From Thuidium tamariscinum (taxonomy: Eukaryota; Streptophyta; Bryopsida; Hypnales; Thuidiaceae), in contig OX344752.2 of NCBI GenBank assembly GCA_947034885.2, positions 7,688,001-7,752,000 of the forward strand: a stretch of DNA of 64,000 bases, written 5' to 3'. The notes under the pieces are model-generated. The model searched no databases. It was not told the DNA's origin and worked only from the letters and a program-made list of their open reading frames with translations. Both the position numbers and the translations under genes were made by a program. Every line of letters begins with the position of its first letter. Within the stretch, counting starts at the first letter, position 1. Positions 174-64,000 of the stretch are shown in pieces.

Positions 174-1470
174 TTAACCTTTGAAGGATGGACTGGTGGT
201 CGTGGAAATCATGCATTTTGATGCCGTGTGACATCATTTCCTTTTAATAAGCCAAATATACTCATTGGAAGTCTATAGAACATCTTCCCTTTCCACCCCT
301 AACCATGTTTTAATGTTGAAAAAAGATGCTGAAATTTTCTTAAAAGCACATTTAGAGGTGAAATTTGATTTCTAAACCTACTCAAATAAATAAAACTTTA
401 AACTACAAAATTATTCAAAAAGAAAAGAAAAACACTTCAGTGAAAAAAATATCATTAAATTGACTCATTGTGTTTGCAAAATTGTTTTGAAATGTCAAAA
501 AACGGTGAAAAAAGTAGCAAAAAATCACATCAATGGCTAAACCTTTCTTTACTAAAATGCTTCTTAGTCACTCATTAGTTCTTGGACTAATATGAAAATT
601 GAACCACAAAAACTAGACTAGTATGCTCAACTTTTCAACAAAAATTGTTGTAAACAGACCATGTAAAAAGAAGTTATAAGTCACCAAAGTTCAATGCACT
701 CCAAAAATGGGAAGATTTTGAACTTCAAATTGCTCCCAAACATTCAAAACAACTTGGATTGACATGAAAATTTTACCACAATAACTAGAATTCAAGGCAA
801 ACAAAATCCAACAAATTTGATTGAAATCAAGCATTTAATAGAAAAAGATACAAGCCCCAAAGTTGCAACCCTAAAATGAAGTTTGGTGAACTCAAATTGA
901 ACCTGCAAGCTTTGATTGGTTTCCAAAAATTCAATACAATTTGGATTGATCTGAAAATTTTACCATAGAAACTAGACTTCTATGTGCAACTTTTCCAACA
1001 AGTTTTATTGAATTTGGACATCAGATGCAAAAGTTACAACACTTTGAAGTTGGATGCTAGACTATGTGAGGACACTTTTGGTCCCCTCGGGCGGTGAGGA
1101 GCTAATACCAAGGATGAAAACTCGGGGAGATCACTAGCAAAAGTTTAAGAAACCACATGTGATAAAAAAAAAATAGGGTCCAATATATTAATTCCACATA
1201 AAATTTGCAAAAAATAACATCTACTATAGGGTACTTAAAAAGTGAGAAATAAGATTATATGTAAAATAGGATGCCCTAAAACACCTCCATATTATAAATA
1301 GGTCATTTTATAGATAGCCCCCCCATTAAATAGGTCATTATTGCAAGTATATGCAAAATATATAAGGGAGTGAACCCCCCAAGGATGAAAAGATGCACTT
1401 CTATCCTACAAGGTAAGATTCTTTGTCATTCAAAAGACGGCAAATGTTTAGAGTGGCATTCAAGGATTAA
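174..1470. mobile_element. TTAA family 3 MITE, split by a nested insertion
   Basis: The left part (174-302) and right part (about 1377-1470) align to the two halves, reverse-complemented, of the intact 229-bp copies at 45117 and 55627. It starts TTAACCTTTGAAGGA and ends CATTCAAGGATTAA. The roughly 1.07 kb between the halves is mostly a family 1 copy (303-1105), so family 1 sequence landed in an older family 3 element. Confidence 0.7.
303..1105 (+). mobile_element. TTAA family 1 element, 5'-truncated
   Basis: Collinear with the full copy at 51006-51981 from its AAAGATGCTGAAATTTT segment to its end, which is decayed here to CGGTGAGGAGCTAA. It lacks roughly the first 200 bp. It contains the three internal modules of 160-190 bp typical of the family. 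Non-coding. Confidence 0.75.
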
Positions 1471-1550
1471 CTTGCATTGTACTTTATTTATAAGTGATCC
1501 TATTAGCAATTATTGTCTATGGAGGTCAGATTCTCAAGGGGCCATATCAA

Positions 1551-1628
1551 ATAAGAGGTTTTCTGGCCTTATTGGGAGACTGCAAGTTCTCGTATGATCT
1601 GATGTGGCAGAGAGATTGCCACATTAGA

Positions 1629-1674
<46 letters not shown>

Positions 1675-1867
1675 AAATTATTTATTTATTTATTTTTATT
1701 TTTATTTATTTTTAAATTCATTTTTTTCAGTTTATTATTATTATTTTGTTTAAAAATTCAAATTTTTTTCAATTTTTATTATTTTTTAATCTGACCAACA
1801 GAGGTTGGTTCACCGATTGGGGAACAAGGTTGAAACAGTCTCTTGTCACCCTGAAAAAACCTCTTAT
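1551..1867. mobile_element. GAGGATTT-family MITE carrying a TA microsatellite
   Basis: Ends are ATAAGAGGTTTT and its inverted complement AAAACCTCTTAT. The interior has the family's dyad TCTGATGTGGCA...TGCCACATTAGA followed by AT-rich sequence. Here the AT-rich part has expanded into (TA)n at 1631-1671. Other copies: 34271, 35069, 35349, 42773, 57755, 59718. Confidence 0.7.
1631..1671. repeat. (TA)n microsatellite
   Basis: About 20 uninterrupted TA units inside the GAGGATTT-family element. Confidence 0.95.
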
Positions 1868-2628
1868 ACTTTAAACTACTTGGAAGATGACACATGGATA
1901 TTTTTACGAAAATGGTATAATTTCTACCACATCTAAGTCTTGCACTAGAGAGTAGTGCTCTCTTCAAATGAACCTAAATAGTAAATATCTCTAGTTCACT
2001 ATTATCTTTACTAGAAATAATAGTTAAGATCATCTTTTATATAAGTAAAATCAATGTTCATAGTATAAAAAGAATAGGATATCACATACAAACTTTGTCT
2101 CGTCAATGTACGTAGAGGATAAACAAACTTTGATTTATCATCATCATTGAACTGAGGCAATATTTTTTCAAACTTATATACAATTTGAAGGTCAAAAATC
2201 TTCAATACTATTGATTTTAATATCAATATAGCATATTTCTTGAATTATTCAATCCAAAGAAGATGATGTGAACATTGTTAAAACATTTAAAGACAACAAG
2301 ATTAGTCCCTTAAGGGATTGCAAATCAATGTTTTTCTTCTACTGGTAGTATTGATGGCAAGATAGCTAATATTTTAACTAATAGTGATGCAAAAAAAAGA
2401 TCACATACACTAATGCTTCAAGTGAAAGCTTTGTTAATCATGAAAATTTGACAACATCTGCTACAAGTGTCAATAATGAGAATATCAAAATAGTGTCTAC
2501 CCCAACTAACAAATATAAGTCATGGCAACAAGAGCCAATGACAAAGATATGGATGTGTGAAAGCCACAAAGAAGAAGTTGCCACAAGCACTTATGTGACT
2601 AAGCTATCAAATCACATCACTCATTAAC
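1868..2628. other. AT-rich interval, nothing recognised
   Basis: No ORF of substance, no terminal repeats and no match to the other repeat families in the window were found. Confidence 0.5.
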
Positions 2629-3597
2629 TTAACCCCTCACCACCCAAGAGGACCAAAAGTGTCCATGGAGTCAGACTCAAAGTGCTGTAACTTTTGCATC
2701 CAATGTCCAAATTCATTGAAACTTGTTGGAAAAGTTGCGCATTCTAATCTAGTTCTTATAGAATAAATTTCAAATCAATATAAGACATATTGAGTTTTTG
2801 AGAGCCATTCAAAGTTCATAGGTTCATTTGGATGCAGCACACTGCATTGTGACTGCTGCAACTTTGGGGGATTGTATCTTTTTCATAAAATCTTTTTTTT
2901 TGATAAAATTTGTTTTTATTTGTTCCCCTCAAGGTCTAGTTATTGTGCTAAAATTTTCATGCCAATCCAAGTTGTTTTGAATGTTTGGGAGCAATTCGAA
3001 GTTCAAAATCTAGACATTTTTGCATTTCAGTCAACTTTGGCAGCTCATAACTTCTTCATACATGATTGCTTTTCAATAATATTTGTTGGAAAAGTTTCAC
3101 TTACTAATCTATTTTGTGTGGCTAAAATTTCAGATCCATCGAAGACGTTTTGAGTGACTGAGAAGCATTTTGGTAGAAGGAGCTTCAGCCACAATTGTGA
3201 TTTTTTCATCTTTTTTCACTGTTTTTTGACATTTCAAATCCATTTTTCAAACAAAATGAGTGATTTTTATGAATTTTTTTTCTACCCCAGTGTTTATATT
3301 ATGGTTTTGAATCACTTTGTAGTTTAATGTTTTTTCATTTGAGTTGGTTTAGAAATCCAATTTCACCTCCAAATGTGTTTTTAAGAAAATTTCAGCACCT
3401 TTTTTGAACACTAAAACATTATAATCTTTCAATCTATACGGTCAAATGACCCCAAATTTGTTCCACACCATCTAAAACATGCACACTACAAAATTGTACG
3501 GTTGAGATCTTCATACCTTACTCTAATTTTGACTTTTCAGACTTGCAAAGGCTGGCAGTTTTTAAGCATGGTTGGACCTTGGGCGGTAAGGGGTTAA
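2629..3597 (-). mobile_element. TTAA family 1 element, full length (969 bp)
   Basis: Begins TTAACCCCTCACCACCCAAG and ends CTTGGGCGGTAAGGGGTTAA, inverted repeats of about 18-20 bp with two or three mismatches, with TTAA at both outer edges. The body is the reverse complement of the copies at 303 and 51006. There is no coding capacity. TTAA targets with TIRs starting CCC are the known signature of piggyBac transposons, so this is best read as a non-autonomous piggyBac-like element. Confidence 0.85.
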
Positions 3598-3730: not shown

Positions 3731-4650
3731 TTAATTCCTAAAGTCCCAAGGCCATTTTTTTTGCCAAAAATCACTCAAAATTGCTATTTCTACTATATTC
3801 ATCCAAGAAAGTAGAAAAAAAAACTTAGAATCAAACCATAAACTCTTCTACTTTACTTGTTTGAGAACATGTGGTAAAAATTTATGAAGTTTGATTTTAC
3901 AAATTGGAAGATATTAGCATTCAAGGTTGGAAAAAAAGTTTTTTTGAACATTGTCTTTCAATTTCAAATGACTTTGATTACCACTTGTAAAAAAAATTTA
4001 CACTATAGACTTTGAATTAAAAATTTGTATGTTGAAGAATTGAATTGAAAGTCTAGAATTTTTTTTAAAAACACACTTGATTTTCATTCTTTAAAAAAAT
4101 GTTAAATAGAAGTAGGTCTAAGATTGAACAAAAAACTAAATTTTAATTAGCTCTAAAATGGAATTGAAATACTATAATCCAAATGGTGAGATTGTTCTAG
4201 CAAACATGCATAACCTTGTTAGGCAATTTTTATAGAAAAAATTGTAAAAATTGCATTCAAAAATGAATATTGTAAGTTATTTTTCAATGAAAGTTGCTTG
4301 AATTGACTAAAAAATCAAGATTGACTATAATTCTTTCATCAATAGTCCAAATAGAATGTATAAAAGTTTTTACATGTACACAAAAATGTAACATTTTGGA
4401 GAATTAAGAAAAAAAAATTGACTTTTTAAAATTTTAGGAGGGCTATTGGGCCAACCTCCATTTTGGGCCTATTGTGTCATAACTTTTTCTCTCAAGCACT
4501 AATTGAAATAAAAACTATATTCCTACAAAGCCCATATGATTTTCTAATTTTACAAAAAGTTTCAAAAACTACGATGAATATTGAGTCTATACAAGCCTAT
4601 CCAAAGTTGCATTTTGGCTCTTGTAGGGCAAATGGGACTTTAGGGGTTAA
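3731..4650 (+). mobile_element. TTAA family 5 element (920 bp)
   Basis: Left end TTAATTCCTAAAGTCCCAAG and right end GGGACTTTAGGGGTTAA form inverted repeats of about 18 bp with TTAA outside. The body is homologous to 22571-23507 and to the incomplete copy running off the window from about 63505. Non-coding. Confidence 0.8.
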
Positions 4651-4872: not shown

Positions 4873-5450
4873 TTAACCCCTAGGGAACCAAGTGTTCATT
4901 TAATGTACGCAAGAAATCTTGGGTAGGTTCGTACAAAGTCATTTTGGGTTCAATTTTCTTGAATTTTGGACACAATGTGTAAACATGTGCCCCCTTCATT
5001 TAAATTTGATTTTTTTTCCAATCCACTATCTAGATCAAAAGTTATGCTGACCTAAACTTAGGCAACTTTGAGCAGCTTTTACAAAACTACTTTTTTTACT
5101 TTTGAGATTTGGCAGGTACATAATTCATATGATGCAAAAAGAAATTTCAGAAAAAAATCCATTGTATAGTGTAAAATTTTCATTCTAGGAATTAAAGATT
5201 GTTGGCCCTCTCAAGCAAGGTTAGAAAAAAAATTTCTTCTAAATTTGAATGTTATTATCTTTTAATCCATGTAGTCAAAGTTTTTGAAATTTTTTCCACA
5301 CATTTCTATAGCAATCTAGACATCTAGTTCAAATTTGTAAAATTGAATTATTCTTAAAAAAAATTTAAATCATTTTTTTTCACTACCCTAGAAAGTGGTT
5401 GTTTTTCACTATCATCTACTAGAAATGTGCCTCAATCCTTTAGGGATTAA
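4873..5450 (+). mobile_element. TTAA family 4 element (578 bp)
   Basis: Begins TTAACCCCTAGGGAACCAAG and ends CCTTTAGGGATTAA. The interior (AAGTCATTTTGGGTT..., GAGATTTGGCAGG...) is matched by the decayed copy at 32088-32450. Non-coding. Confidence 0.7.
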
Positions 5451-5609: not shown

Positions 5610-6536
5610 TTAACCCCTAAAGACCAACCTACTAAATTTGGCAATATAGCAATTTTGGGCATGTACATGTCATTGGAGATTTTCAAATTTTTAGCCCAAA
5701 TTTTAATAGAAGGTGGAGATGAGGAACATCTTTTATATGTACAAAAATCGAGACATTTGGAAATACAAGTCAAAAGATATGGCCTAATATGTTTGTTTGT
5801 ATTTTGTAATTGGGCAATTCGAGTAGATTGAAAAAAATCAATTTTTCCAAAAAGAAAAATTTGAAATTAGTTTTATTTATTTAAGTATGCATGGAAAGAT
5901 TTGAATCAATCCAGTTTGATCAATGAGTCAAAAGTTATGAGGTTTTTTTGTTTGCACGCAATTATGGATTTTCCACTGTAAAAGAAGTTTGAAGTCCTTT
6001 ATTTTACTCAATTTTCAATATTTTATGAAAAAATATAATTGTAGGATGTAGATTGTTTATTATAACATTCTAACCATTGGGATTGACATTTTTCAATTCC
6101 ACAATAAAATTCTTAACAATTTTGTATTTTGAGTTATTTGTTACTTCACTTTACTTACTATTTTTTTCCTATATGTTGTACATTCTAAACAATTTGAAAT
6201 TTTTTAAATAAGTATCCTATTTGGCTTCAATAATGAATCCAAATTGGCACAACCGTTTTGAACAATTTTTCAAATGATTGTTGCATCTAAAGTGCAGCTA
6301 CCTTATTTTCTACAAGGTGAAAAAAATGATTTTTGAGCATTCAAATGCTAATGCCTTGCAATTTACATGGTGAAAAACTTTGAAATTTTTCCACTCATGT
6401 TTTCAAACCAATTTACTAGTAGTCCTACGGTTACAAATCTCAAAAAATGTTTTAAAAAAAATTATATTGGTACTAGAAATGGTAGTTTTTGACCATTTTA
6501 GAATAAACATATATAGTCAATGAACTTAAGGGTTAA
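5610..6536 (+). mobile_element. TTAA family 2 element (927 bp)
   Basis: Begins TTAACCCCTAAAGACCAACC and ends AACTTAAGGGTTAA. Interior blocks such as AGTCAAAAGTTATGAGG and TATATGTTGTACA recur in the copies at 18921, 26535 and 41472. Short ORFs inside are not conserved between copies. Confidence 0.85.
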
Positions 6537-6574
6537 ACAATTGCCATCAATCACAGAATGTTAGGTTTCATTTG

Positions 6575-7176
6575 AGAAGATAAGCTTTTTATATATACAT
6601 GGGGGGTAGCAGGTATAACAACCCATGTGGGATTTATAATTTAGAAGTAGTAGTTTCTCAACCATTCATAGTGAAGTCTAATAGAAGTAGAAATTGTGTT
6701 AAAACTAGAATTTCAAACCTCATTAGGCATAGTAGATTAACTTATTGCAAAAAAAAATTGAACTAAGAATAGTTGTAAAATCAAGTTGAATTTTATCTCC
6801 CAAAATTTGTTTGAAATTTTGAGCCTCCAATCAAAAGTTATGAACAAATTTCATAGAGGGGTTGGAAGGGATTATTTTTTCTTAAATCCTCTTTGAAATT
6901 TGTCCATATCTTTTGAGTGGAAACTCAAAACCTAAAACGGATTCGTAGAGATAAAATTCAACTTGATTTTACAATTTTCTTTTAGTTCAAAGTTTTTTGC
7001 AATAAGTTAATCTACTATGCCTAAATGATGTTTGAAATTCTAGTTTTAATACAATTCCTACTTTTATTAGACTTGACTATGAACAATTGAGAAACCACTA
7101 CTTTTAAACTACAAATCCCATATGGGTTGTTCTACCTTCTACCACTCCATGTGTATAATTAGAGCTTCTCTTCTCC
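6575..7176. mobile_element. Foldback element with arms of about 285 bp
   Basis: The left arm (6575-6859) is complementary to the right arm (6888-7176) along its full length, with scattered mismatches and a loop of about 28 bp. Matching blocks include ACCCATGTGGGATTTATAAT against its complement near 7120, and AAGTTGAATTTTATCTC against its complement near 6950. There is no coding sequence. A transcript would form one long hairpin. It starts 38 bp after a TTAA family 2 element. Confidence 0.85.
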
Positions 7177-18920: not shown

Positions 18921-19870
18921 TTAACCCCTAAAGCCTTGAACTGTGTTTTTTGGCAACATAAAAATTTCGGGCAACTCACTACGAATGGAATTTTTATTTT
19001 TTTTCTTTGAAATTCTTACAAAACATGTGTTCAAGGAGTAGCTTTAAGGCCCAACATTTTTCATAACTTTTGACTACATGGTTTAAAAGTTATGGCATGA
19101 TATGGTGTTTCCTTTGAACTACTGGCAGCCTAGGCAGCAAAAAGAACTTCTTTAAAAATTGTTTTTTTAAGAAATAAAAATTTGAAATAGGTTTATTAGA
19201 TTTTTATCTACATGGAAAGATTTGAATCATTCAATTTTGATAAATGAGTCAAAAGTTATAAGGAATCTTAGTTTGGGGTAGTTTGTGGGTAGTTATAGAA
19301 TTTCTACTCCACAAAAAAGTTTGAAATTCTTTATTTAATTAAATTTTTAATATTTTGGAAAAAAAACTAAAACATTGGGTGAAGATTGCTTATTACAATA
19401 TTTTAACCATTGGGATTGTCATTTTTCATTTTTGTAAATAAATTGTTCACAATTTAGTATTTTCAAGCATTTTCTACTTCTTTGTACTTACTATTTTTTT
19501 CCTATATGTTGTACAATTCCAAATGATTTGAAATTTTTTGAAAATATAGCCAACTTGAATTGTAAAATGAATTCAAAGAGTAACCATCATTTTGAGTATT
19601 TTTTCATACAAATGTGACCTTGTGAAGTGTAGCTGCCCGGATTTTTGCAAGGATAAAAAAAGGATTTTTGCTAGTTCAAATGTTAATATCTTGCAATCTA
19701 CGTGGTGAAAGTTTCTGAAATTTTTTCCACATCTTTTCAAACCACCTAAATACAAGATCCTACGGTTAAATATGTAAGAAAATGTTTTTAAAAAAAAATT
19801 GCACTTGTATTAGAAAACGCAGTCTTATAGTGATTTTGGTGGAAACATAGTAAAAAACCTTAGGGGTTAA
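18921..19870 (+). mobile_element. TTAA family 2 element, full length (950 bp)
   Basis: Begins TTAACCCCTAAAGCCTTGAA and ends AACCTTAGGGGTTAA, with inverted ends and TTAA outside. Closest relatives in the window: 26535-29533 (interrupted) and 41472-42420. Non-coding. Confidence 0.88.
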
Positions 19871-22570: not shown

Positions 22571-23507
22571 TTAAACTTCTAAAGGACCAATGGCCCCTTT
22601 TGTCTACAAAACAAAACAAAACTCAAAACCGCCATTTCTATAGCAAAGAGTAAAATAGTTTGAAAAGTTTTTTGTTTTTTGTTTTAACACCTAACTATAA
22701 GATCTTAAACCTAACTAGTATGAAAATATGTGGAAAAATTTCAGAAATTTTGACTACTTGAATTGCAAAATATTTGTCTTTAAAGTGAAAAAACAAAATT
22801 TTCAACACATTGCAAGACTAGATTAATTGACTTTGAACCTTCTTAACTTTAATTTTTTGCACTATAGAATTTTGAGCTTTAAATTTTTCTAATATGAAAT
22901 GTAGTTGAGAGTCTAAAGAAAAGAAAAGAATTCAAAAAAACTAAATTTTCATCCTTAAAAAAATTGTTTAATAGAAGTAGGTATGAGATAGAAGGAGAAT
23001 CTAAATTATTAATATCTCTACGATGGAATTAAAATACACTAATTCCAATGGTGATATTATTCTAGAAATCATAATAAACCATGGAAAACTTTTTTTCTAA
23101 AAAATTGTAGAAATTGCATTAAAAAATGAATCCTACTTTTTTAAGAAGATGCTTAGATTGTCCAAAAAACAAGATTGTCCGTAACTTTCACACCACTTAT
23201 TCAAATGAAATGAATAAAATATTTCTATGGAGACAAAAATTTAATCTGTAGGGAATATAAATTTGAAGAAAAAAAATCAAATTTGAATTTTTTAAAATTT
23301 GTTCCTAGTCTCTCCAATTTGTAGATTATTTAGGCATAACTTTTATTCTTGGGCACCAACTAGGAAAAAAATTATATTTCCATTAAGCTATTCATTTTTT
23401 TATCTTCAAAAAAAATTTGAAAAATCATGACATAAACTTAAAGCATAGGTACCTATCCAAAATCCCATTTATCCATTGAACACACAATGGTCCTCTTTAG
23501 AAGATAA
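22571..23507 (+). mobile_element. TTAA family 5 element, decayed ends (937 bp)
   Basis: Begins TTAAACTTCTAAAGGACCAA and ends GGTCCTCTTTAGAAGATAA. The interior matches 3731-4650 (AATAGAAGTAGGT..., CAAGATTGNCTNTAAC...). Both copies are non-coding and of nearly equal length. Confidence 0.7.
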
Positions 23508-26534: not shown

Positions 26535-27344
26535 TTAGATTGAAAGACAAATTTTCTTATGAATCTCCTATAATGAAGTTTTTATTTTTTTTCTTTGAAA
26601 TTTTCACAAAAAATTTCCTTGCGGAATAGCTTAAAGGCCCAACAATTTTTATAAATTTTGACTTCATGGCTACAAAATAATGGCATGAAATGTTGTTTCC
26701 TTTACTTGGTGGGCAAACCGAGCAGCTAAAAAACTTCTTAAATTAAATCATTTGAAATAAAAATTTGAAATTGATTTATTAAATATATATTTATGTGGAA
26801 AGCTTTGAATCATTCCATTTCAATTAATAAGATGAAAGTCATGAGGAGTTTTAGTTTGGAGTAGTTTGTGGGTAATTATAGAATCTCTATTCCACAAAAA
26901 AGATTGAAATCCTTTATTTAATTCAATTTTTAATATTTTTGAAAAAAAATTAAAACATTGGGTGAATATTTTTTATTAAAATATTTCAACCATTGGGAAT
27001 AGGATTTTTCAATTCCATGAATAAATTGTTCACAATTTAGTATTTTGATATATTTTCTACTTCTTTGTACTTACTATTTTTTTCCTATATGTTGTACAAT
27101 TCAAAACAATTTGAAATTTTTTGAGCATGTAGCTAGCTTGCATTGAAGAGTGAATTCAAAGAGTAACTACCATTTTGAACATTCTTTCATATAAATGTGA
27201 CATTGTAAAGTGTAGCTACCTAGGTTTTCATACGGATTAAAAAAGGACTTTTGTCAATTCAAATGTTAATATCTTGCAATTTACACAATGGAAATTTCTG
27301 AAATTTCTTCCACATCTTTTCAAACCACCTTAATACAAGATTCT

Positions 27345-29427
27345 ACTAGTATGCCCTGTACCAATGCCACAATTAGAACTAAAGTCAAAGTAATTTCCTA
27401 ATTTTTGAGAACCATAAAAACTTTGAAATTCAATAACCATAAGTCTTACCATAAGTCGGAATGCCACAAAACCAAGCCCGTGCACTCCTCCTTGCCAAAG
27501 AGCTTTTCAACGATACCAAGCACACAATTGGGGGACATGCGAGTTGGGAGATCTCAATGTGACAAACAAACTGTTACGGACCTCCAACAATAGACTCAAA
27601 TAAAGAACACAAAATATACTAAGGAGCTCAAACCACCCGACCATAGAGAGAGATCAATCTATATAAGATAATCTCCTCACCCCCAAGCTCCGCCTTATAT
27701 ACTATCAAATAAGACTATAAGTCCTTAATATAGACTAGGACTTCTTTTTCTTACTTTTGGCTTTCTAACCTTGTTTCTATCCAAAATTAGCCATTAAAGT
27801 AAAAGTCCTAGTTATCCTTTTTTAATCATATCTTGTCCTAATCTTTATCTTCTACTTGGAGTTATCTAACTCCAAGTTCCACATACTTCTTCTTGTCTGG
27901 GAGTTGTTTAACTCCAGTGCATTAGTCATCCAAGTGGAGTTGTCTAACTCCACTACATAAATCCACCCTCTGGAGATCTCTATCTCCGGGCAATCCCTGT
28001 TTATCCACTAATGCACATTTCATCATGAATTAGTCCATGATCCATAAATGCATTCATCCATCAAAGGTCATGACACAATCATACATTCGTTTATCTATCA
28101 ATGCATTTATCCATCCAAGGTTTGAAGGGTCACAAGGGTCATGACACAATCTCCCCCTCAAAACTAGTCATTGTCCTCAATGACAAAACTAGGGTAATCT
28201 TTCCGAAAATCCATCTCTCTTTCCCAAGAAGCTTCATCTTCAGGATAATCCTTCCATTTAACCAATAGCCTTCGGAATGATTTATTCCGAAGATGCTGCA
28301 TATCAACTTTTAGTATCCTTTCTGGTTCAGCAAGTAATGTTCCTTCAGGAACAACTTTAGGAAGCTCAGGTAGCACATGGCTAGGATCAGAAACATATTT
28401 CCTCAATAAACTTACATGGAAAACATTGTGAATTTTCCAATTGGAAGGCAAGTTCAATTCATAAGCTACAGGTCCTATACGTTTGCTAATTTCAAATGGA
28501 CCACAAAATCGAGGAGATAACTTCCTTGACTTTCCAAGCTTTAATCCTGACCTTTTAGGTGTAACTTTCAAAAACACTTTATCACCAACCACAAACTCAC
28601 GATGACTTCGTTTCTGATCAGCATAATATTTAGCTCTATCTTGAGCACTTTTCATACTCAACTTTACAGATTCAATGATTTCGTTCATATCCCTTATCAT
28701 TTGATTCACACTTTCAATCTTTGAGTTAGGAGTTGATAAAGAAATTGGAGTCCTACATTCTTGACCGTACAATGCAAAAAATGGACTAACACCAATACTA
28801 CTATGAGTCGTATGGTTATAAGAGAATTGTACTAAGTGTAGCCATTTATCCCAAGAGTGTTGTCTTTTACCAACATACATTCTAAGCATATCCTCAAGAG
28901 TTCTATTAGTTCGTTCTGTTTGACCATCAGTCTCAGGGTGATAAGCTGTACTTAAACGAATTTTTGTTCCACATAGCTTAAAAAGTGATGACCAAAATTC
29001 ATTGATAAACTTACGATCTCTATCACTTATTATCTCTGAAGGTAAACCATGATTCACAAAAATATGTTTCATAAATAATTCAGCTACTCCAGAAGTAGTA
29101 ATAGTAGTAACTGTAGGAATAAATCGAGCAGATTTTGTTAATCGGTCAACTACAACAAAGATGCTATCATACCTTGATGGAGTTCTAGGTAGGCCTACAA
29201 TAAAATCTCTATCTCCAGGCAATCCTTGTTTATCCACTAATGCACATTTCATCATGAATTAGTCCATGATCCATAAATGCATTCATCCATCAAAGGTCAT
29301 GACGTAAAGATCATGACACAATCATACATTCGTTTATCTATCAATGCATTTATTCATCCAAGGTTTGAAGGGTCACAAGGGTCATGACACAAACAAAACA
29401 AACTACTTGTCTTAAGGTTTAGATTGT
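27345..29427 (+). repeat. Unclassified dispersed repeat with (AAAC)n tract, hosting a gypsy insertion
   Basis: Without the gypsy copy it is about 265 bp, starting near CTAGTATGCC and ending near CTTGTCTTAAGG. The same repeat occurs at 61190-61395 (+) and at 54571-54845 (reverse). Shared landmarks: AAACCAAGCCCGTGCAC, GAGATCTCAATGTGACAAAC, then an AAAC-rich tract. No TIR or coding region identified. Confidence 0.65.
27572..29389 (-). mobile_element. Ty3/gypsy LTR retrotransposon fossil (chromovirus type), broken
   Basis: Minus-strand element bounded by TGTTACGG (plus-strand reading) and TCATGACA, with a 5-bp target duplication CAAAC on both sides (27567-27571, 29390-29394). Parts: LTR 27572-28146; polypurine tract just inside it (28151-28160 region); integrase core, GPY/F-type C-terminal part and a chromodomain-like tail within 28164-29200; partial second LTR 29205-29389. 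Capsid, protease and reverse-transcriptase regions are not present, so it is a broken, non-autonomous remnant. The shared LTR portions differ at only a few positions over about 170 bp, so it is young relative to its surroundings. Confidence 0.92.
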
Positions 29428-29533
29428 TAAATCTATAACAAAAAAGATTTTTCTAAAATTTTGCAATTATGTTAGAAATCACAGTTTTGGAGCATTTTTG
29501 GTGAAAACATAGTCAAAAGCCTTTAGAGGTTAA

Positions 29534-41471: not shown

Positions 41472-42420
41472 TTAACCCTTGAAGGACCAAATTGTGTTTT
41501 TTTGACAACATAGCATTTTTAGGCAATTCACTATAGATGGAGGGATTTTTTTCCTTTGAAATTTTCAGACAACATGTGCATGAGGAGTATCTTTAAGACC
41601 CAATAGTTCTCATAATTTGTGACTAAGCTACTGATATGTGATATTCATTTTTTGGTGGGTAGTTCAAAAAAAATTCTTTAAAAATTACTTTTTCAAAAAA
41701 ATAAAAATTTGAAATTCATCCTTTAGGTTTATATAGACATGTGTACCTTTAAGTCATTTCATTTTGATTAATGAGATGAAATTTATGGGAGTTTTAGTTT
41801 GTGGGTAGTTTGAGGATAGTTTGTAGAAAGTTATAGAATGTCTATTCCAAAATAAACTTTGAAGTCCTTTATTTAATTCAATTTTTAATATTTAAAAAAT
41901 AAAATAAAAATATTAGGTGTAGAATGTTTATTACAATATTACCACCATTGGGATTGACATTTTTCAATTCAATATATAAATTCTTAACAATTTAGTATTT
42001 TGAATCATTTTCTACTTCTTTCTACTTACTATTTTTTCCTACATATTGTACAATTCCAAATGATTTGAAAATTTTCAAGCATATAGCCAACTTGAATTGA
42101 AGAATGAACCCAAAGAGTTACAACCATTTTGAACATCTTTACATACAAATCCATGTGGCCTTCTCAAATGCAGTTTCCCGGAATTTTTGCAATGGTAAAA
42201 AAAAGTATTTTTTTAACTTCAAACACTACTATCTTGCAATTTACACAGTGGAAGTTATTGAATTTTTTTACATCTTCTCAAACTAGTTCACCAAAAGATC
42301 CTACAGTTACATTATCCCAAAAATATATTTTTTTCTTCTTCTAAAATTTGGTAGCTGTCCTAGAAATGATAGTTTTGGAATGGATTTGGTGAAAACATAG
42401 TCAAAACCTTTAGTGGGTCA
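41472..42420 (+). mobile_element. TTAA family 2 element (949 bp)
   Basis: Begins TTAACCCTTGAAGGACCAAA. The right end is decayed to AACCTTTAGTGGGTCA. Collinear with 18921-19870 throughout and of the same length. Non-coding. Confidence 0.83.
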
Positions 42421-44787: not shown

Positions 44788-45119
44788 TAAGGATATAAGG
44801 CTCAGTAATCACTCATCTAAGGGCTGAAACTAAATTTTTGGGGAGGTGAAACATCTTGAAATATTTTTCAATATATTTTTCTTGAAAGACAAGTGGAATT
44901 GACGTCTAACCCAAGTCATTTCATTTTTTTTGAACTTCGCGGAATTAGTTACTAAATTTTGAAGTTGAAAGGGCATACAACTCTAAAATGGTGCCCTAGC
45001 TAAAATGCACACTGTCATTACACTGTTGAAGGCTATGAAAAAGCAACATGTACAAATACTATACATTTATGATAGGGCACCATTTTAGAACCCACTCCAT
45101 TTAAGAGCCTTCTACCTTA
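44788..45119 (-). mobile_element. AGGTAGGAGG-family MITE, long subtype (332 bp)
   Basis: Begins TAAGGATATAAGGCTC and ends AGAGCCTTCTACCTTA, reverse orientation relative to 46243 and 54237. It contains the inner inverted repeat TGGTGCCCTAGCTAAAATG / CATTTATGATAGGGCACCA. Its terminal TTA overlaps the TTAA of the next element. Confidence 0.85.
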
Positions 45120-45345
45120 ACCCTTAAACGACGTTGAAGCCATTTTGTGGTCAATGAACACGAGAGAATCTTTCTATGCAAGACAAAATAGCAATCATTC
45201 ATCCTCGGAATTAGGGGTGGAAAAGGAAGATCTTCTATAGTGCTTTGACTTCCAACGAGTGCTTTTAGAATTTTTTGAACCAATGATTCCCACAGTATCA
45301 AAATTCCTCATTTCCACGGCTACCGGCTCGTCATTTAGGGGTTAA
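45117..45345 (-). mobile_element. TTAA family 3 MITE, intact (229 bp)
   Basis: Begins TTAACCCTTAAACGACG and ends CGTCATTTAGGGGTTAA, bounded by TTAA. It is exactly as long as the copy at 55627-55855 and shares TAGGGGTGGAAA and GAAGATCTTCTATAGT. Ends of the form TTAACCCTT resemble known piggyBac termini. No ORF. Confidence 0.92.
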
Positions 45346-46110: not shown

Positions 46111-46242
46111 TAGCTCTACTAGGCAATCATAGAAATAAGGTCTGCATACGGACTGGAGAGAAGGGCCAAGAAAAGGGTACATTTGTAAATGTAATGTCTG
46201 AAACATCAACGTGAATGAAATGTTTGTTGGGAATGGCTCAAC

Positions 46243-46563
46243 TAAGATAGAAGGCTATTTAATGGAGCGGGTTCTTAAATGGTGCCCTACCTTAAATGTA
46301 TAGTACTTGTATATGTTGCTTTTTCATAGTGTATTGACAGTGTACATTTTAGCTAGGGCACCATTTTAGAACCCTATGCCCTTTCAACTTCAAAATTTGA
46401 TAACTAATTTCACAAAGCTAAAAAGAATATGAAATGACTTGGGTTAGATGTCAATTCCACTTGTCTTTCAAGGAAAATATACTGAAAAATATTTCAAGAT
46501 GTTTCACCTCCCTAAAATTCAGCTTCAGCACTTAGATGGGCGATTTTTGTGCCTTCTACCTTA
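46243..46563 (+). mobile_element. AGGTAGGAGG-family MITE, long subtype (321 bp)
   Basis: Begins TAAGATAGAAGGC and ends GTGCCTTCTACCTTA. The left half holds an inner inverted repeat (GGTGCCCTACCTTAAATG near 46281, complement CATTTTAGCTAGGGCACC ending near 46362). Confidence 0.83.
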
Positions 46564-46652: not shown

Positions 46653-46960
46653 TAAGGTAGGAGGCTTGAACTCCAACAGGGCACTAAAAGTGAAAGGTGC
46701 ATTTTGCTTCCTCCAAAGTACCAAATTTGCACATTTAAGGATGTGGCCACTTTTGATGACTACAAATGACCACTTTTTTCAACTTCAAAAATGTGTAACT
46801 AAATCCACAAAGCTTTAAAAATATGAAACAACTTGGGTTAGATGCCTGTTCCACTTGTATTTCAAGGAAAATTTACTACAAAAAATATTTCAAGATGTTT
46901 TACCTCTCCAAAATTCAGTACCAACCCTTAGATGGTCAATGTATGGACCTCCTACCACTA
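46653..46960 (+). mobile_element. AGGTAGGAGG-family MITE, short subtype (308 bp)
   Basis: Begins TAAGGTAGGAGGCTTGAACT and ends TATGGACCTCCTACCACTA. Collinear with 44256-44567. Confidence 0.82.
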
Positions 46961-47217: not shown

Positions 47218-48005
47218 GATCAATCCCTAAAGGACCAAGTAGGATATTTAGCAAGCAATATAGCATTTTCAGCCATTCATTTAGGTAGTGAATTTTCACT
47301 TTTTTTCTTTGAAATTTTTTTACAACATGTGGTTGAGGACTAGCTTCAAAGAGCAACAATTTTCATAACTTTTGACTACATGGTTTAAAAGTTGTTTCAC
47401 ACATATAATATTATTGTCTACGTGGAAAGACTTGCTTTGGATTAGTGATGGAAAAGTTATAGAGAAAATTGTTTTGAGGGCAATCACATCATCTTTCAAG
47501 AAAATAAAACATTAATGAGACAACTTTTGAACTCAATTTTCATAATTTTCATAAACAATCTTGAGAGCAAGATTTCACCAACAATGCTTTGATTACTTAA
47601 TGGAACAATTCAATTGTTGGTATTAGTACATTTTTGGTCCAATCTTAGAGCTATTTAAAATTTAGTTATTCTTTAATCTTGTGCTTACTTCTATTTAATA
47701 TTTTTTTAAAGAATGAAAATCAAGTTTTAATTATTGAATTTTGTTCTCTAAAATTGTCTACTCAAATCTTCAATATAAATTTTCTTAAAGTCAAAATGTA
47801 TAGTGCTAAAATTTTGAATCAAGAAGATTCAAAGTTTCTAAAACCTAACCAATTCAGGTGCAAGTCAAAATGTTTTCTTCACTTCAAATGCAAACATCTT
47901 GCAATCAATATAGTCAAAAAATTTGAAATTTCTTTTTTAAATTCTTATACTTGTCTTATGCAAGATCCTATGGTTAGATATGTAAGAAATCAAATTGACC
48001 CCTAA
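47218..48005 (+). mobile_element. Chimeric remnant of TTAA families 2 and 5
   Basis: Starts TCAATCCCTAAAGGACCAAG and follows family 2 for about 170 bp (GAAATTTTTTTACAACATGTG). Later parts (47640-47990) resemble family 5 sequence in reverse, and a left-end-like ACCCCTAAAGTCC appears at about 48000. Boundaries are uncertain. Confidence 0.45.
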
Positions 48006-48918
48006 AGTCCTTATGTCCCCTCTAAAGAGAAATAAAGTTCAAGTAGATTCCCATGATCTCAATTGTTTGTACAATTAAATTTTTTTTTGTTAAGATAGAA
48101 ACACACAATTGTTTCCTAAGAACATTTTTTTAATTTCAATTGGTGCCTAGTAGCAAAAAATATGCCATCCTAAACACAATTTCAACTTTCTATGCAACAA
48201 TAAAAATCTACAAAACTTTAAAGAACAATTTTTTTTTCATATAGGTTGGTTGTCTTCTATATAAAAAAAAACATTGAATCGTTCTAGTTGTGTTAGTGAT
48301 GTGAAAGTTATGAAGGCTTTTTGTAACAATCATAGTATCTTCTTGAGAAAATAATGTATTGGATTCATTTTTTGACTAATTTTTTTTTCATTTATTTTTT
48401 TCTTCTATAATTTGAAGTCATTACTTCAAAATAAAAATTTTAATTCTAATATATCATCTATGAATTTTATTCTTAAAATATTCAAAGTCTTAGAATCCAA
48501 TCAAGCTGGGTGCATAAATTTAATTTATTTCATTTTAAGCTCAAATATCATACAATCTTCATGGTCAAAGTTTCTAAAATTTCTTCTACAAATTTTTTAA
48601 CTAATTTAGTGCAAGATCCTATATTTAGAAAGATGAAAATCAATTTTTGAAGATTTTTCTTTTTGCAATAGATATGGCAATTTTGAGTGTTTTTTTTAAT
48701 GAAAAAACTCCTTGGTATTTTGGAGGTAGAATTAATTTTTTTAATCTTTGCAAAAGAAATGTCAATTTTACATGATATTAGATGAAAAAAATATTTTTAA
48801 CTTTAGATACATATCATTTAGATGAGGTTGTTTTTTTCAAATCATTCAGCAAAAAGAAAAGTAGATTGAATTGCCTTGCCAAGACTAAGAGGAAATTTCT
48901 TCTTGCTTATCTACTTTC
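48006..48918. other. AT-rich interval, nothing firmly recognised
   Basis: Phrases such as TGTGAAAGTTATGAAGGC and CTTCATGGTCAAAGTTTC echo TTAA-family interiors, suggesting very old copies. No gene. Confidence 0.4.
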
Positions 48919-50709: not shown

Positions 50710-52233
50710 TGTCGTGTTGTAAATTCATTCACTATGTAGAACTTTGTGTTTATTGTTGAAGTAAAGGATTTTTTGGAGATCTTCATTCAACCTTATGGAG
50801 TAAGTTCTACCTTTTTTTACTTCTACCAGACAATTATTTGGCTTTAATTTGTTTGTTTCTATAATATAAGATTAGAAAGCTACATAGGAGTTAAGGATAA
50901 GATGATAAGATTTGGCTTTTAGTTGAGTTAAAGTCTTAATGACTTACTAGGAGTTAAGTCCTTTTACTTTGATAGAAAATATGGGGGATAAAGTGGAAGT
51001 GGTAGTTAACCCCTCAAGGCCCGTGGCAAAAACATGTTCAAAAACATCATAGCTTTTGAAGCCTTATAGATCTAAATGTCACTAAGTCATACAAATCTCA
51101 ACCGTACAATCTTGTAGTAGACATGTTGTAGATGACGTGTACAAAATTTGGAGTCATTTGACCGCATAGATTGCAAGATTATAATGTTTTAGTGCTGAAA
51201 ATGGATGCTGAAATTTTCCCAAAAACACATTCAGAAGTGAAATTTGATTTCTAAACCTACTCAAATGAAAAAACTTTACACTTCAAAGTGATTTAAAACT
51301 AGTATACAAACACATTGGTGTAAAAAAATCTCACTCAAGTAACTCATTATGTCTACAAAACAGCTTTGAAATGTCAAAAATTAGCAAGAAAAACTACAAA
51401 AACTACATCTAAGGTTGAACCTCCATTTACTAGAATGCTTCTCAGTCACTCATTACTTCTTGGATTGATATGAAACTTTAGTCACACAAAGTAGACTAGT
51501 ATGTGAAACTTTTTCAACAAATTTGATTGAAAATGGACTATGTATGAAGAAGAAACAAGTCGTCACAATTTACTGTATTTCAAAAATGGCAAGGTTTTGA
51601 ACTTTGAATTGCTCCTAAACATTCAAAACAACTTGAATTGACACAAAAATTTTACCACACAAAATAGACTTCAAGAGAAACAAAACCCAACAAATTTTAT
51701 TGACAATGATCATTTGATGAAAGGGAAACAAGCCCCTGAAGTTGCAGCCCTAAAATGCAGTTTCTGAACTCAAATTGAACCTGCAAACTTTGATTGCTTG
51801 CTAAGAAATCATCACGTTTTGAATCAATCTGAATATTTAACCACACAAAACAAGAAGACATTACGCAACTTTTCCAACAGGTTTTGTTGAATTTGGACAT
51901 TAGATGGAAAAGGTATAGCACTTTGAATTTGACTAAAAACTTTGAAAGGCGCTATTTGCGCCCCTTGGGCATTGAGGGTAAAGGTCTTCTTCCTCCTTAT
52001 AATGAGGTAGAAAAAAACATATATGTGAGATACAGAAGAGAAGAGGAGAGAGGATCATTATGTGTTTAAAAATCAAATTTTGCTATGAAACATTTGGAGT
52101 TTTCTATGGAAATTGTATATAGAGCTATTTTGCTATGAATATTTGTGTGAATATTTATTTCTAGATTTTCAATTGGTCTCAATCCATTCTAGTTGTAGCT
52201 AGGATCCCTGCGGTTTCCCTTAGTAAGACTTCT
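50710..52233 (+). mobile_element. LTR-like repeat, interrupted by a TTAA element (fossil)
   Basis: Starts TGTCGTGTTGTAAATTC and runs to about CCTTAGTAAGACTTCTC, roughly 545 bp of its own sequence plus the TTAA family 1 insertion at 51006-51981. It matches the inverted copy at 53194-53713 along its length. The TG start suggests an LTR. No internal coding region found; broken and old. Confidence 0.6.
51006..51981 (+). mobile_element. TTAA family 1 element, full length (976 bp), nested
   Basis: Begins TTAACCCCTCAAGGCCCGTG and ends GGGCATTGAGGGTAA. It lies inside an LTR-like repeat: the host sequence is continuous across it when compared with 53194-53713, which defines its boundaries independently. 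Three internal modules begin near 51471, 51631 and 51821. Non-coding. Confidence 0.9.
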
Positions 52234-53779: not shown

Positions 53780-53982
53780 CACTACAAGAGAAAGGGGTGT
53801 TTTAAGTAGTGTCCTAGACATCACGTCTTTTAAGTAATGTCTTTTAAGTAAGGTTTTAAGTAGAATTTTACTAAAAAGATAGTCTTTTTAGTAAAATTTT
53901 ACTTAAAACCTTACTCAAAAGACATTACTTAAAAGATGTGATGTCTAGGACACTACTTAAAACACCCCTTTCTCTTGTAGTG
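53780..53982. mobile_element. CACTA-type foldback MITE (203 bp) with CCT target duplication
   Basis: Starts CACTACAAGAGAAAGGGGTG and ends CACCCCTTTCTCTTGTAGTG, an exact inverted complement, flanked by CCT on both sides (53777-53779, 53983-53985). Nearly the entire element is a palindrome with inner ACTTAAAACCTTAC-type repeats. Few mismatches, so recent. Confidence 0.94.
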
Positions 53983-54236
53983 CCTACATCTTGCATCTTC
54001 AAAAACTTGTAACTAATCCACAATACATCCAAAACTTATAGAACCACTTACATGTTGATTCATAGTCTTTCAGCAATGTGCAAAAATTGTTGTTTATTTT
54101 CTATAAAATATGGATTATGCCACATAGCTTATTTACACCATTTTAGATGTAGTTACCTGAAAGAACAATTTGAATGAAGAATCAACAATTGACAATTACA
54201 TGTGCAAACCCAAGTGTTTGCATTTAAAACCCTTAC

Positions 54237-54565
54237 TAAGGTAGGAGGTCCTTAAATGGAGCGGGTGTTAAAATGAAGCACTTCCTTAAATGTACACAGT
54301 TTGTACATGTTGCTTTTTCATAGCCTTCAGCAATGTACAAATTGTGTGCATTTTAGGAGGTGCTCCATTTTAGAGCCCTGTGCACTTCAACTTTAGAACT
54401 TTATAACTAATTCCACAAAGCTCAGAAAAATATGAAATGCCTTGGGTTAGATGTCAATTCTACTTGTCTTTCAAGGAAAATTTATTGAAAAATATTTCTA
54501 GAAGTTTTACCTCCTTGAAATTCAGTTTCAGCCTTAGATGGTCCGTTATAGGACCTCTTACCTTA
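54237..54565 (+). mobile_element. AGGTAGGAGG-family MITE, long subtype (329 bp)
   Basis: Begins TAAGGTAGGAGGTCCTTAAA and ends TATAGGACCTCTTACCTTA. It contains TGTACATGTTGCTTTTTCAT, shared with 46243 and, reversed, with 44788. Confidence 0.87.
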
Positions 54566-55626: not shown

Positions 55627-55855
55627 TTAACCCTTGAACGCCGTTGTGGACATTTGGCATTCTTTGAATGACAAAGACTCTTTGCTTGTAGGACAAAATT
55701 GCAACTTTTCATCCTCAGTATTAGGGGTGGAAAGGGAAGATCTTCTATAGTACTTTGACTTCCAATGAGTATTTTAGCTTTTTCAAAGTAGATGATGTCA
55801 CATGGTATCAAAATGCATGATTTTCACGGGCACTAGTTTGTCCTTCAAGGGTTAA
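55627..55855 (-). mobile_element. TTAA family 3 MITE, intact (229 bp)
   Basis: Begins TTAACCCTTGAACGCCG and ends TCCTTCAAGGGTTAA, bounded by TTAA, the same length as the 45117 copy. No ORF of note. Confidence 0.92.
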
Positions 55856-57056: not shown

Positions 57057-58351
57057 TCATCCCTCATCACTTGAGGCCTAAAAGTATCTAACAACATCCT
57101 TGCTTTTCAAATATTATTAGTCTAAATGTTACCAAGGTATGAAAATGTCAAGCATATAATCTTGTAGTGTATGTATTGTAGATGACACGAATCAAATTTG
57201 GAGTCATTTGGTTGTATAGATTGCAAGATTACACTATTTTAGTGTTAAAAAAGGATGCTGAAATTTTTCCAAAAACACATTTGGAGGTGAAATTCTATTT
57301 TTTAACCTAATCAAATGAATTTTTTTAATTGTAGTGATTCAAAACCAACCAATCAATACACTAGTCAAAAGTATCATTCAATTGAGTCATTGTGTCAATA
57401 GAATTATTTTGAAATGTTAAAAAAAAAAAGTTGCAAAAAACACATCTATGGATGAACCTCCTTCTACTAAAATACTTTCTCATAACTTCTTAGATTGATA
57501 AGAAATTTTAATTACACAAACTAGACTAGTATGTGCAACTTTTCTATATTTTTAAAATTGAAAATGGGTACTACTTGAAGAAGGAATAAGCGAGTGAAAT
57601 CCACTATAATCTAAAAATGTCTCAATTTTGAACTTTGAATTGCTCCCAAACATTCAAAACAATTTGGATTGACATGAAGATTTTACCACAATAACTAGAC
57701 TTTAAGGAAAAGATAGCCAAAAAAATTATTGCAAAAAAACATTGAATGGACAAGCATAAGAGGATTTTTGGGCCCTTGGAAGACCCTTTCAAGGCTGTTC
57801 CTTGAAACTATTTGTACTATTGCAAACTAGCCCTTGCTGGTCTAAAATTTTTAATTAAAAAAAAATCCAAAATTTTGAAAATGTATTAAAAAGAAAAAAA
57901 ATTATTTAAAATTATTTATTTAAAATGTTTTTAAAATATTTGAAAATAATATGATTAATTAATTAATATTATCTGATGTGGCAGTCACCCAACCACATTA
58001 ACATGCTAATGTGACAATGTTCCCAACATTCCTTCAACATTTCCAGCATTCAGGAACTCGTAGTCTTCTAAAATGGCTAGAAATCCTCTTATGATACAAG
58101 CCCCTAAATTGTAGCCATTATAATGTACTTTGGTGAATTCAAATTGAACTTATGAACTTGGGATGGATTTCAAAAAAACATTATATCTTAGATCAATTAA
58201 AAAATTTTACAACAAAACTTACACTAAAATGCACAAATTTTCCACCAGTTTTATCAAATTCAAACATTAGATTAAAAAATTATAGCACTTTGAATTGGAT
58301 TGCAAGAATATGTGAAGACACTTTTGGTCCCCTTTGGCCATGAGGGGTTAA
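57057..58351 (+). mobile_element. TTAA family 1 element split by a GAGGATTT MITE
   Basis: 57057-57754 and 58094-58351 are collinear with 51006-51981. The right end CATGAGGGGTTAA is intact and the left end decayed (CCCTCATCACTTGAGGCC). The interruption is the GAGGATTT-family copy at 57755-58093. Confidence 0.8.
57755..58093 (+). mobile_element. GAGGATTT-family MITE (339 bp), nested
   Basis: Starts CATAAGAGGATTTTTGGGCC and ends GCTAGAAATCCTCTTATG, a perfect 13-bp terminal inverted repeat. ACAAG lies on both sides, a possible short target duplication. The interior dyad TATCTGATGTGGCAGTCACC...AACCACATTA is present. Confidence 0.87.
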
Positions 58352-61725: not shown

Positions 61726-62040
61726 GATCCCTAAATGCAAAAAATGTGTTTTTTGGCAATTTAACAATTTTGGGCAACTCACTACAAATGGAATTTGTTT
61801 GATTTTTCTTTAAAATTTTCACACAACATGTGCCCAAGGAGTTGCTTTGAGGTCCAACAATTTTCATAACTATTGACTATATAATTAAAACAATTATTGT
61901 ATGATATGTGATTTTCATTGCATAATAGGTAGCCCAAGTAGCTCAAAAACCTTCTTTAAAAATCACTTCTTTCAAAAATAAAAACTTCAAATTAATATTT
62001 TAGATTTATATATACCTAAGAAGCTTTGAATCATCCCATG
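61726..62040 (+). mobile_element. TTAA family 2 element, left part only
   Basis: CCTAAATGCAAAAAATGTG, TTGGGCAACTCACTAC and CAACATGTGCCCAAGGAG match the start of 18921-19870. The right two thirds are absent. Confidence 0.7.
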
Positions 62041-62510
62041 TAAAAATTGTAAAAAAAGTCACAATTTATGATAGAAGAAAAAAATTGGAAAAGTCTAAAC
62101 TTATAAAATTGTGCTAGACTATTATGGAAGTATGTAAATTTTTTTACAAAATTTTTGATCGTGTAGATTGAAGAAACATAGTACTTGAAGATTAAAAAAG
62201 AATTCAACAATACATGACATAGTCTTAGTTTTGAAGACTTGTCTTTTGAAAGGGTAGTGAGGCAAAGGTACCATGAGGTCTCATTATTCACCCAAAAGAA
62301 TTTTAAATTTTAAAAAAAATGATTAACTCATCCCCCTTCAAAAAAAAATTAATTTAAGAAAAAAATTCCCCTAGCCTCCCTCCGCCCGGGATTACAAAAA
62401 TAAATAAATAAAAATTAATTAATTAAAATTATTTACCCCCCAATGTTCCCTTCCTATGCTCTCTTTATAAATTTCAGAACTAGTTTATAAGACAATGAAT
62501 ATCGAACAAT
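62041..62510. other. AT-rich interval, nothing recognised
   Basis: Simple A- and C-rich patches only. Confidence 0.4.
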
Positions 62511-62514
62511 CATG

Positions 62515-62705
62515 TCTCCCGTATCCCTTATTCCCTACTGTATCAATATTCATATTTATACTCCATATTGTATCAATATCCATATCCATATATGCTCAGC
62601 ATCCATATCTATATCCACTCATTTAGATGTACTTTCCATAATATCTCTACTATATCCATACTTGATACCATATACATACAATGTCCATATTTGTATACCA
62701 AATTC
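62515..62705. repeat. Degenerate CCATAT-rich tandem-like tract
   Basis: Many imperfect TATATCCATATC/TATCAATATC units with irregular spacing. The 67-codon ORF over it is a low-complexity artefact. Confidence 0.55.
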
Positions 62706-63504
62706 AGATGGATGAGATTAAATCTTGCCAAGATCGATGATGTGTGATTTTATGAGAAATTGATGGCATTTGGGAGGGGGAGCATTTTTAAAAAAATCAA
62801 TGGTTTGTGATTTTTTTTTGGGGGGGGAGGGATTGGCCAAGAATGGCAACATCTTTTCAAGGGGTAGTCAATTGACTTCAATTCTTATTGGCGTGATTAT
62901 TTTGTACTCCAAGATAGTTCATTTTTTATATTTACCTATAATATCATATCTTTTATACACTTGACAAACTTCAAAAGAAAAAGAGGAATATTGCACACTT
63001 TCCTTGAAGCCTTGCTTGTACTATCCATAATACTTTATGCATCTTAGCTCTTGATTGGGGCATTAGATTGAAAAAATTTACTTATTTCATAATTTTAGAG
63101 AGAATCATTGAAAGCTAGTTTTGTAACAACCTATATAAACTTTCAGTTTTCTCTTCAACACCAATTTTCCTTTAATTTTGACCTTTAGAATGAGTTTGAA
63201 ATTATTTTAAATCCAAGAAAGATTAGAGTGCAAAACATTGTCTTAAATTTTTTTACTTTGACAAAATGATGACTCATAAAGCTTTTTAAAACCAAAATAT
63301 GGTTTTTAAATACTTAAACATCCCATTGGGAATTCATCAAGTATAATTTTTGGAGAAAAAAGTAGTGGTTTTGGAGGTACTAACCTTAGAAAGTAGACAA
63401 GTGAAAAGAAATTTTCTAGTGGTTTTTGCAAGGCAATTCTACTTTTCTTTCTATTGAATGTTATATAAAAAAAACTTTATCCAAGTAATATGGATTAATT
63501 GAAG
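62706..63504. other. AT-rich interval, nothing recognised
   Basis: A G-run (62818-62830) follows a T-run. No gene. Confidence 0.4.
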
Positions 63505-64000
63505 ACATCTATAGTCCCTAGGCCTTTTTTGTTATAATTTTCATTTTTATTGCAAAGAAAAAAATCTTTAAAAATTAATTATCATATATTTAAAACATAG
63601 ATACATACATTGAACTAATGTAAGCATATGTGGGAGTAATTTTAGAAATTTTGACCATATAGATTGTAAGATATTTAAGATATTTGTGTTTAATGTGAAG
63701 AAATTGAGTTCTGGCAACTTGCTTGATTAGATCATAAGACTTTGAATCTTCTTAGCATAAAATTCATGAAAAATAGACTTGAATTTTAAAAGATTATAAG
63801 AAAAAATTGAGTTAAAAGTTAAGAGAAAAATTCCCCCCCAAAAAATTTCATTTTCATTCTTTAAAAAAATTTAAGTGGAAGTAAATATAAGATTGAAGAG
63901 AAATCTAAATCATTAATAGCTTAAAAAATTTGAAACACACTAATACAAATGAATATAATTTTTTCACATAGAAAAATATATAGTCTACAAGAAGAAATTT
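63505..64000 (+). mobile_element. TTAA family 5 element, runs off the window
   Basis: From about ATAGTCCCTAGGCC onward it follows 3745-4190 (TTTTCATTCTTTAAAAAAAT, GAAGTAAATATAAGATTGAA). The left TIR is decayed and the right end lies outside the window. Confidence 0.6.

Follow-up and report, generated by a model that had tools for sequence, protein, structure and literature searches.

Three families of TTAA-bounded repeats in the window

The stretch analysed here (the window) comprises 64,000 bp of contig OX344752.2 of the moss Thuidium tamariscinum (GCA_947034885.2, positions 7,688,001 to 7,752,000, forward strand). It carries three main families of non-coding repeats bounded by TTAA, designated A (about 970 bp), C (229 bp) and D (about 950 bp). 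With a probability of roughly 0.9, we consider these repeats to be non-autonomous miniature inverted-repeat transposable elements (MITEs) of the piggyBac superfamily, which have lineage-specific ends and are moved by transposases encoded elsewhere in the genome. A reading made earlier from the letters of the window alone (the sequence-only reading) had inferred both a plant host and a piggyBac-type identity. The host, a moss and not a flowering plant, is supported by PsaA and dynein heavy-chain sequence evidence, and the identity by transposases with such ends at other places in this genome. Among solved structures, a 500-residue piece of PsaA from contig C19 matches best with PDB 6l35 and 8htu (1,138 bits), followed by 9lut (1,118) and 4xk8 (1,078); 6L35 comes from Physcomitrella patens and 4XK8 from pea (PMC7884438). 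Matches to dynein heavy chains, genes that flowering plants are not known to have, lie on five contigs. These data point to a moss, with another bryophyte less likely.

With family profiles, the window yields three C, four A and ten D copies or fragments, i.e., 17 when split copies are counted as one (Table 1). Outside this count are four small D-like matches (3415-3504, within an A copy; 47867-47989; 48542-48693; 63624-63682) and one A-like match (19678-19768, within a D copy), so that the previous estimate of about 18 copies or fragments was fair. The four elements previously described as clean (2629-3597, 18921-19870, 45117-45345 and 55627-55855) start with TTAACCC and end with GGGTTAA at precisely these coordinates. 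In contrast, the proposed set of at least five unrelated families reduces to three main ones, since the elements of 920, 940 and 950 bp all belong to D and the 578-bp element is a diverged D relative. At the place where the latter was thought to start there is no TTAA-CCC end, and the five TTAA sites in 4001-4200 are all followed by AAA or TTA. Within D, the copies at 5610-6536, 18921-19870 and 41472-42416 share 71-73% identity by alignment. The exact string TTAACCCCTAAAGG, which had been claimed for the window, has no occurrence there and instead represents the majority form at one of the D ends in 22 genome copies. A stretch of about 90 bp in the interior is common to the A and D families (3415-3504 and 19678-19768). 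Even A and D are thus not wholly unrelated.

The 7-mer TTAACCC occurs at 18 sites on both strands of the window, while the mean expected from a Markov model is 11.5 (maximum of 19 in 30 simulations). Because this count is near chance, it is the families and not the bare motif that constitute the evidence, and single sites such as those at 7880, 43286 and 4873 may be chance occurrences. The same count is what speaks for the explanation that the repeats are nothing but chance TTAACCC sites in an AT-rich genome, to which we give hardly any credence. For A, C and D it is refuted by the dozens of scored copies per family, by their TTAA edges, and by the unrelated flanks of the copies that were read. 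Moreover, one dinucleotide-Markov shuffle of the window gave no match at E<=1e-3 with any of the A, C and D profiles. Reverse-strand profile matches had hinted at a long palindrome in both D and C. It was rejected, as direct self-alignment of seven copies remained within the range of shuffled sequence; those matches may be due to mixed orientations in the profile alignment.

Copies of the MITE families in the genome

The genome searched comprises 363 Mb in 19 contigs, of which ten contigs of 24-54 Mb account for 345 Mb; the window lies on the contig referred to here as C4. A first look returned 3,919 (C), 10,561 (D) and 3,467 (A) candidates, which are not verified copy numbers, and the best 40 of each family were scored. 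Among these, the 39 other copies share 86-93% (C), 88-93% (D) and 96-99% (A) identity with the window copy, and a few further matches beside the scored C and D places lie at 73-81%. In a set of 60 C and D loci that includes the window's own copies, L009 and L039, TTAA is present at both exact match ends in 44 (22 of 30 in each family). At the remaining 16, several matches stop short of the edge and others have changed end letters. For A, the ten best-matching copies, which do not include the window copy, were read. All ten have TTAA at both edges with different flanks, and their ends are TTAACCCCTCACCGCCCAAG, with one base differing in one copy. The terminal letters are CCCT in C and CCCC in A and D.

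piggyBac transposases encoded elsewhere in the genome

The sequence-only reading had suggested searching the assembly for a DDE_Tnp_1_7 (piggyBac) transposase with the same ends. With the PF13843 profile of this domain, there are at least 116 matches: 116 of 659 candidates were scored, all are above the curated cut-off (E value 5.7e-80 to 1.4e-70), and many are without an internal stop. All four elements in which both ends were read are bounded by TTAA-CCC. A Pfam scan identified DDE_Tnp_1_7 in four of five proteins, the fifth being an N-terminal piece. Comparison of one transposase domain with solved structures gave two matches, the piggyBat transposase (E value 2.9e-30) and 6x67, which is labelled "Transposase" and which we take to be the T. 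ni piggyBac enzyme. The three aspartates of the catalytic DDD triad are found at the piggyBat-aligned places in 14 of 14 domains. A putative cysteine-rich C-terminal tail was seen by eye in the frames of T2, T3, T5 and T6. The open frames around the domain range from 408 to 1,214 codons.

Eight transposase loci were first fetched and five of them extended (T1, T2, T3, T5 and T6). Both ends were read in T1, T5 and T6 (Table 1). T2 and T3 were read at the right end; the left end of T2 was not found in the flank read. In the right flanks of 17 more domains, hand-picked from 108, a candidate TTAA-(C/T)CC end lies 1.2-2.0 kb past the domain in 13. Both CCCT and CCCC starts occur among the transposase-bearing elements; T1 and the 5,096-bp element described below have CCCC on the left. 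A tree of the domains, built without L078, contains the separate groups L088 plus L082 (100/99), L087 plus L086 (87/88), and T1, T2, T3, T5, L079 and L089 (99/98). An inverted duplication at this place may account for the loci L006 and L007 (C8, 23.93 and 23.94 Mb), whose transposase domains have the same protein sequence and lie about 7 kb from each other on opposite strands.

The 5,096-bp element is located at C2:31544938-31550033 (loci L079, L097 and L100 are involved) and has TTAA-CCC at both ends; about 950 bp of this copy, between the domain and the right flank, were not read. A 1,200-bp stretch of its domain is matched end to end at 100% (rounded) in 11 places. The ten other than the query score 2160 bits, versus 2165 for the query itself, a difference of about one base. 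At the predicted edges of these ten, the same 41 terminal bases are found on each side together with the outer TTAA and different flanks (10 of 10), so that all copies are of equal length; TTAA is thus present at both edges in 11 of 11 copies. The comparison of copies covers the 1,200-bp domain stretch and the 41 terminal bases on each side. Over these portions, the near-identity is strong evidence for a very recent amplification, and the element is perhaps currently active. Its 532-codon N-terminal piece matched no Pfam family at E<=0.1.

Pairing of MITE ends with transposase lineages

The ends of the MITEs and of the transposase-bearing elements were compared over bases 8-32, using 21 transposase-element ends and eight MITE ends (168 pairs). 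The A left end in this table is that of the old copy ending at 58351. Fifteen of the 168 pairs reach a score attained by at most two of 2,000 shuffles, while about 0.2 pairs would be expected. The C right end agrees with the right ends of T2 (20/25), T5 (17/25), L089 (17/25), T1 (16/25), L078 (16/25) and L079 (15/25), and the C left end agrees best with the left end of T1 (15/25), which indicates that the asymmetry of the two ends has been kept. The D ends agree with L087 at 16/25 and 14/25, and are the same as it over the terminal 14 bases. The A right end agrees with L088 at 16/25, and over the first 18 bases of the A end from the ten copies read, L088 matches at 18, L082 at 17, L086 at 15 and the T1 left end at 14. 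With 64% agreement over bases 8-32, the ends of L087 and L088 are too different to be those of stray D and A MITE copies. The sharing of ends with a piggyBac-encoding element is strongest for C; for A and D it is provided in each case by elements read at a single end.

The apparent ages follow the same division. For the A-like transposase, five copies share 99-100% identity, while the matches listed for the D-like transposase query include three at 100% and three at 88-95%, and are then mostly at 71-80%. Judged by identity, A is the youngest MITE family and D is older, in agreement with their transposases. Because the ends sort largely by transposase clade and the ages agree, several transposases are indicated rather than one, and at least three lineages most likely stand behind A, C and D. 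Cross-mobilisation between lineages may nevertheless occur.

The sequence-only reading had instead attributed all families to one transposase encoded elsewhere. The TTAA-CCC start common to all ends is in keeping with this proposal, as are the scores of the T1 left end against both A and C and of L086 against A. We consider it improbable, since the A-, C- and D-like ends adjoin transposases of different clades that are separated by long branches, and since the ages differ both between A and D and between their transposases. A slightly smaller probability attaches to the proposal that another superfamily with TTAA targets made A or D. Kolobok and Sola3 elements prefer TTAA targets, so that the TTAA duplication alone is not specific to piggyBac. 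Furthermore, A and D start with CCCC and not CC[C/T]T, and the D link consists of one transposase end. Against this proposal, for which no search aimed at Kolobok or Sola transposases was made, stands the agreement of the ends with piggyBac-bearing elements of the genome, which extends over 14 terminal bases between D and L087 and over 18 between A and L088.

Under the preferred interpretation, i.e., piggyBac MITEs served by several transposases, each MITE family would keep short asymmetric ends (the TTAA target duplication and CCC...) that are recognised by one transposase lineage, the coding interior having been lost or never present. Transposases from the autonomous elements of 5.0-5.6 kb would bind these ends, cut the MITE out, and paste it into a TTAA, which would be duplicated. 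That the MITEs were mobilised by these transposases is our inference, as is a cut-and-paste mechanism with seamless TTAA repair, by analogy with known piggyBac elements. There is about an even chance that several piggyBac lineages are alive together in this moss, at least one of them jumping now, each with its own swarm of MITEs (perhaps thousands) inserting into the TTAA edges of one another.

Target sites

Shared TTAA edges were found among the copies read. In the 44 C and D loci with both ends, neighbours likely lie on one common TTAA at L017, L020, L026 and L036, while L038 is doubtful from its next letters. One copy of the 5,096-bp element joins an apparent D end at its TTAA, and one A copy joins an apparent C end in the same way.

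Empty sites with a single TTAA had been named as a check on the piggyBac assignment. We examined 52 elements (two counted twice, as window element and as locus) for unoccupied paralogous sites, which were found for ten, all C or D. Of the 40 alignments that span the joint (at least one from duplicate DNA), 30 are free of gaps within ten columns. Since the paralogues are only 68-82% identical, a short site of about four bases is supported, and its letters are not proven. For the window elements and for T1, T5 and T6, no unoccupied paralogous site was found in the sequence searched; no match spans the joint at T6, whose left flank consists of the terminal part of an abundant repeat. The two flanks of 2629-3597 have a TTAA in common; given the way they were defined, this shows no more than the presence of TTAA at both edges.

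Several observations weigh against the assignment of A, C and D to piggyBac lineages with separate transposases. Ends also match across lineages: A is matched by the T1 left end and by L086, D by L081, and C by T6. The D link consists of one right end, 1,967 bp past one transposase domain, and is therefore single-ended, and the A-like transposase elements were likewise read at one end only. In four of the 17 transposase flanks there is no candidate end. Comparison of the MITEs with the insides of five autonomous elements gave no match better than E 1e-3, so that none of those five can have given rise to the MITEs by simple deletion. Strong MITE matches to the sequence of T3 and T5 had been considered as interior homology and were rejected, being A and D copies outside the ends of those elements. 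With regard to target sites, only three of the 40 empty-site alignments are exactly TTAA and ten have gaps near the joint, the paralogues being old; five window elements had no spanning paralogue in the sequence searched, and the joined flanks of 2629-3597 had no other match in the genome. Finally, the terminal hallmark of piggyBac is given as CC[C/T]T in the portion of PMC2872659 available to us; C (CCCT) fits it, and A and D (CCCC) miss it to the letter.

Comparison with known systems

The moss elements resemble members of the piggyBac superfamily, such as the T. ni element and piggyBat of Myotis lucifugus, in the DDE_Tnp_1_7 domain, the DDD triad, the TTAA edges, and the short inverted ends that start with CCC. 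The putative cysteine-rich tail noted by eye may be a further likeness to the superfamily. The moss elements differ from the T. ni element in length, 5.0-5.6 kb versus the 2,472 bp stated in an excerpt of PMC10140906. The closest parallel to the MITEs is provided by the piggyBac-related CMITEs of coral, which, as far as the accessible part of PMC2872659 describes them, are also short, non-coding and flanked by TTAA, and share their genome with piggyBac-like transposons. The differences here are the plant host, the three families most likely tied to three transposase lineages, and the CCCC ends of A and D.

The superfamily has been recorded from fungi, plants and animals (excerpts of PMC10140906 and PMC10813416). 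For land plants, the passages at hand list 1,230 PiggyBac matches amounting to 0.00% of the assembly in the repeat table of C-fern (PMC6890710), one match of 75 bp in that of Stipa (PMC8319324), and PiggyBac among the angiosperm MITE superfamilies (PMC10004981). These entries share with the moss a land-plant host; in the passages seen they are labels or counts, whereas here there are a transposase, both ends and recent copies. A literature search (bryophyte, moss genome, Physcomitrella, Marchantia, Hypnales), which covered few subscription papers, found none that by its title or the text consulted reports piggyBac in a moss; such a report may nevertheless exist in print. Two leads were discarded: in the text available, that for Niphotrichum contains the word "piggybacking", and PMC5745447 has piggyBac in a reference only. 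The system is thus ordinary in kind, consisting of a known superfamily and its MITEs, and unusual in host and scale.

Although piggyBac is the animal-derived workhorse of gene delivery, in the plant literature examined it is a label or a trace. With its matched miniature families and with autonomous copies that are nearly identical and look intact, a moss such as this would offer a natural plant system and a plant-native source of piggyBac. It would also make it possible to test how several pairings of transposase and ends are kept separate in a single genome.

Feature table and other features of the window

Table 1. Family A, C and D elements of the window, and the autonomous elements T1, T5 and T6 with both ends read
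Feature	Position	Strand	Evidence
A MITE, full length 969 bp, TTAA at both edges	2629..3597	+	Edges read, genome copies compared
A copy, truncated, degenerate end CTAA at 1105	305..1105	-	Alignment and profile match
A copy, about 76% to 2629-3597	51006..51980	-	Alignment and profile match
A copy, split at about 57755-58091, edge GGGGTTAA at 58351	57060..58351	-	Alignment and profile match
C MITE, 229 bp, TTAA at both edges	55627..55855	+	Edges read, genome copies, profile match
C MITE, 229 bp, TTAA at both edges, adjoins edge of repeat R	45117..45345	+	Edges, alignment, profile
C copy, two pieces (174-302 and 1379-1470)	174..1470	-	Alignment and profile match
D MITE, 950 bp, TTAA at both edges	18921..19870	+	Edges read, genome copies, profile match
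D copy, 927 bp, TTAA at both edges (the previous 920-bp element)	5610..6536	+	Alignment and profile match
D copy, about 945 bp, 3' edge without TTAA (the previous 940-bp element)	41472..42418	+	Alignment and profile match
D copy, 82% to 18921-19870, ends missing	26572..27346	+	Alignment and profile match
Diverged D relative, ends TTAACCCCTAAAGTCCC at 4650 (the previous 578-bp element)	3764..4650	-	D profile, E 6e-13
Diverged D relative	22668..23419	-	D profile, E 2e-12
D fragment with its TTAA end	29401..29533	+	Profile match, edge read
D fragment	61728..62041	+	Profile match
D fragment	47222..47393	+	Profile match
D fragment	5211..5364	+	Profile match
T1, 5,024 bp			TTAA-CCC, both ends read
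T5, 4,954 bp			TTAA-CCC, both ends read
T6, 5,616 bp			TTAA-CCC, both ends read

Between the two pieces of the C copy at 174..1470 lie about 1.08 kb, in which the A copy at 305-1105 is contained. A further repeat family, R, of about 300-330 bp and with ends that resemble TAAGGTAGGAGG...CCTCCTACCTTA, is present at 39885-40178, 44256-44567, 44788-45119, 46241-46563, 46653-46956 and 54235-54565, and may be a TA-target element. Both the transposon T6 and the C copy at 45117 adjoin an edge of R. On the minus strand, 28164-29258 holds an open frame of 364 codons that resembles, by eye, the terminal part of a Ty3/gypsy retrotransposon with integrase and chromodomain. In the GC-rich region at 12424-13699, which is perhaps a gene, three long open frames overlap, with both strands represented. 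Lastly, 6574-7175, 25420-25689 and 53780-53982 match their own reverse complement at 82-96% and are perhaps other fold-back repeats.

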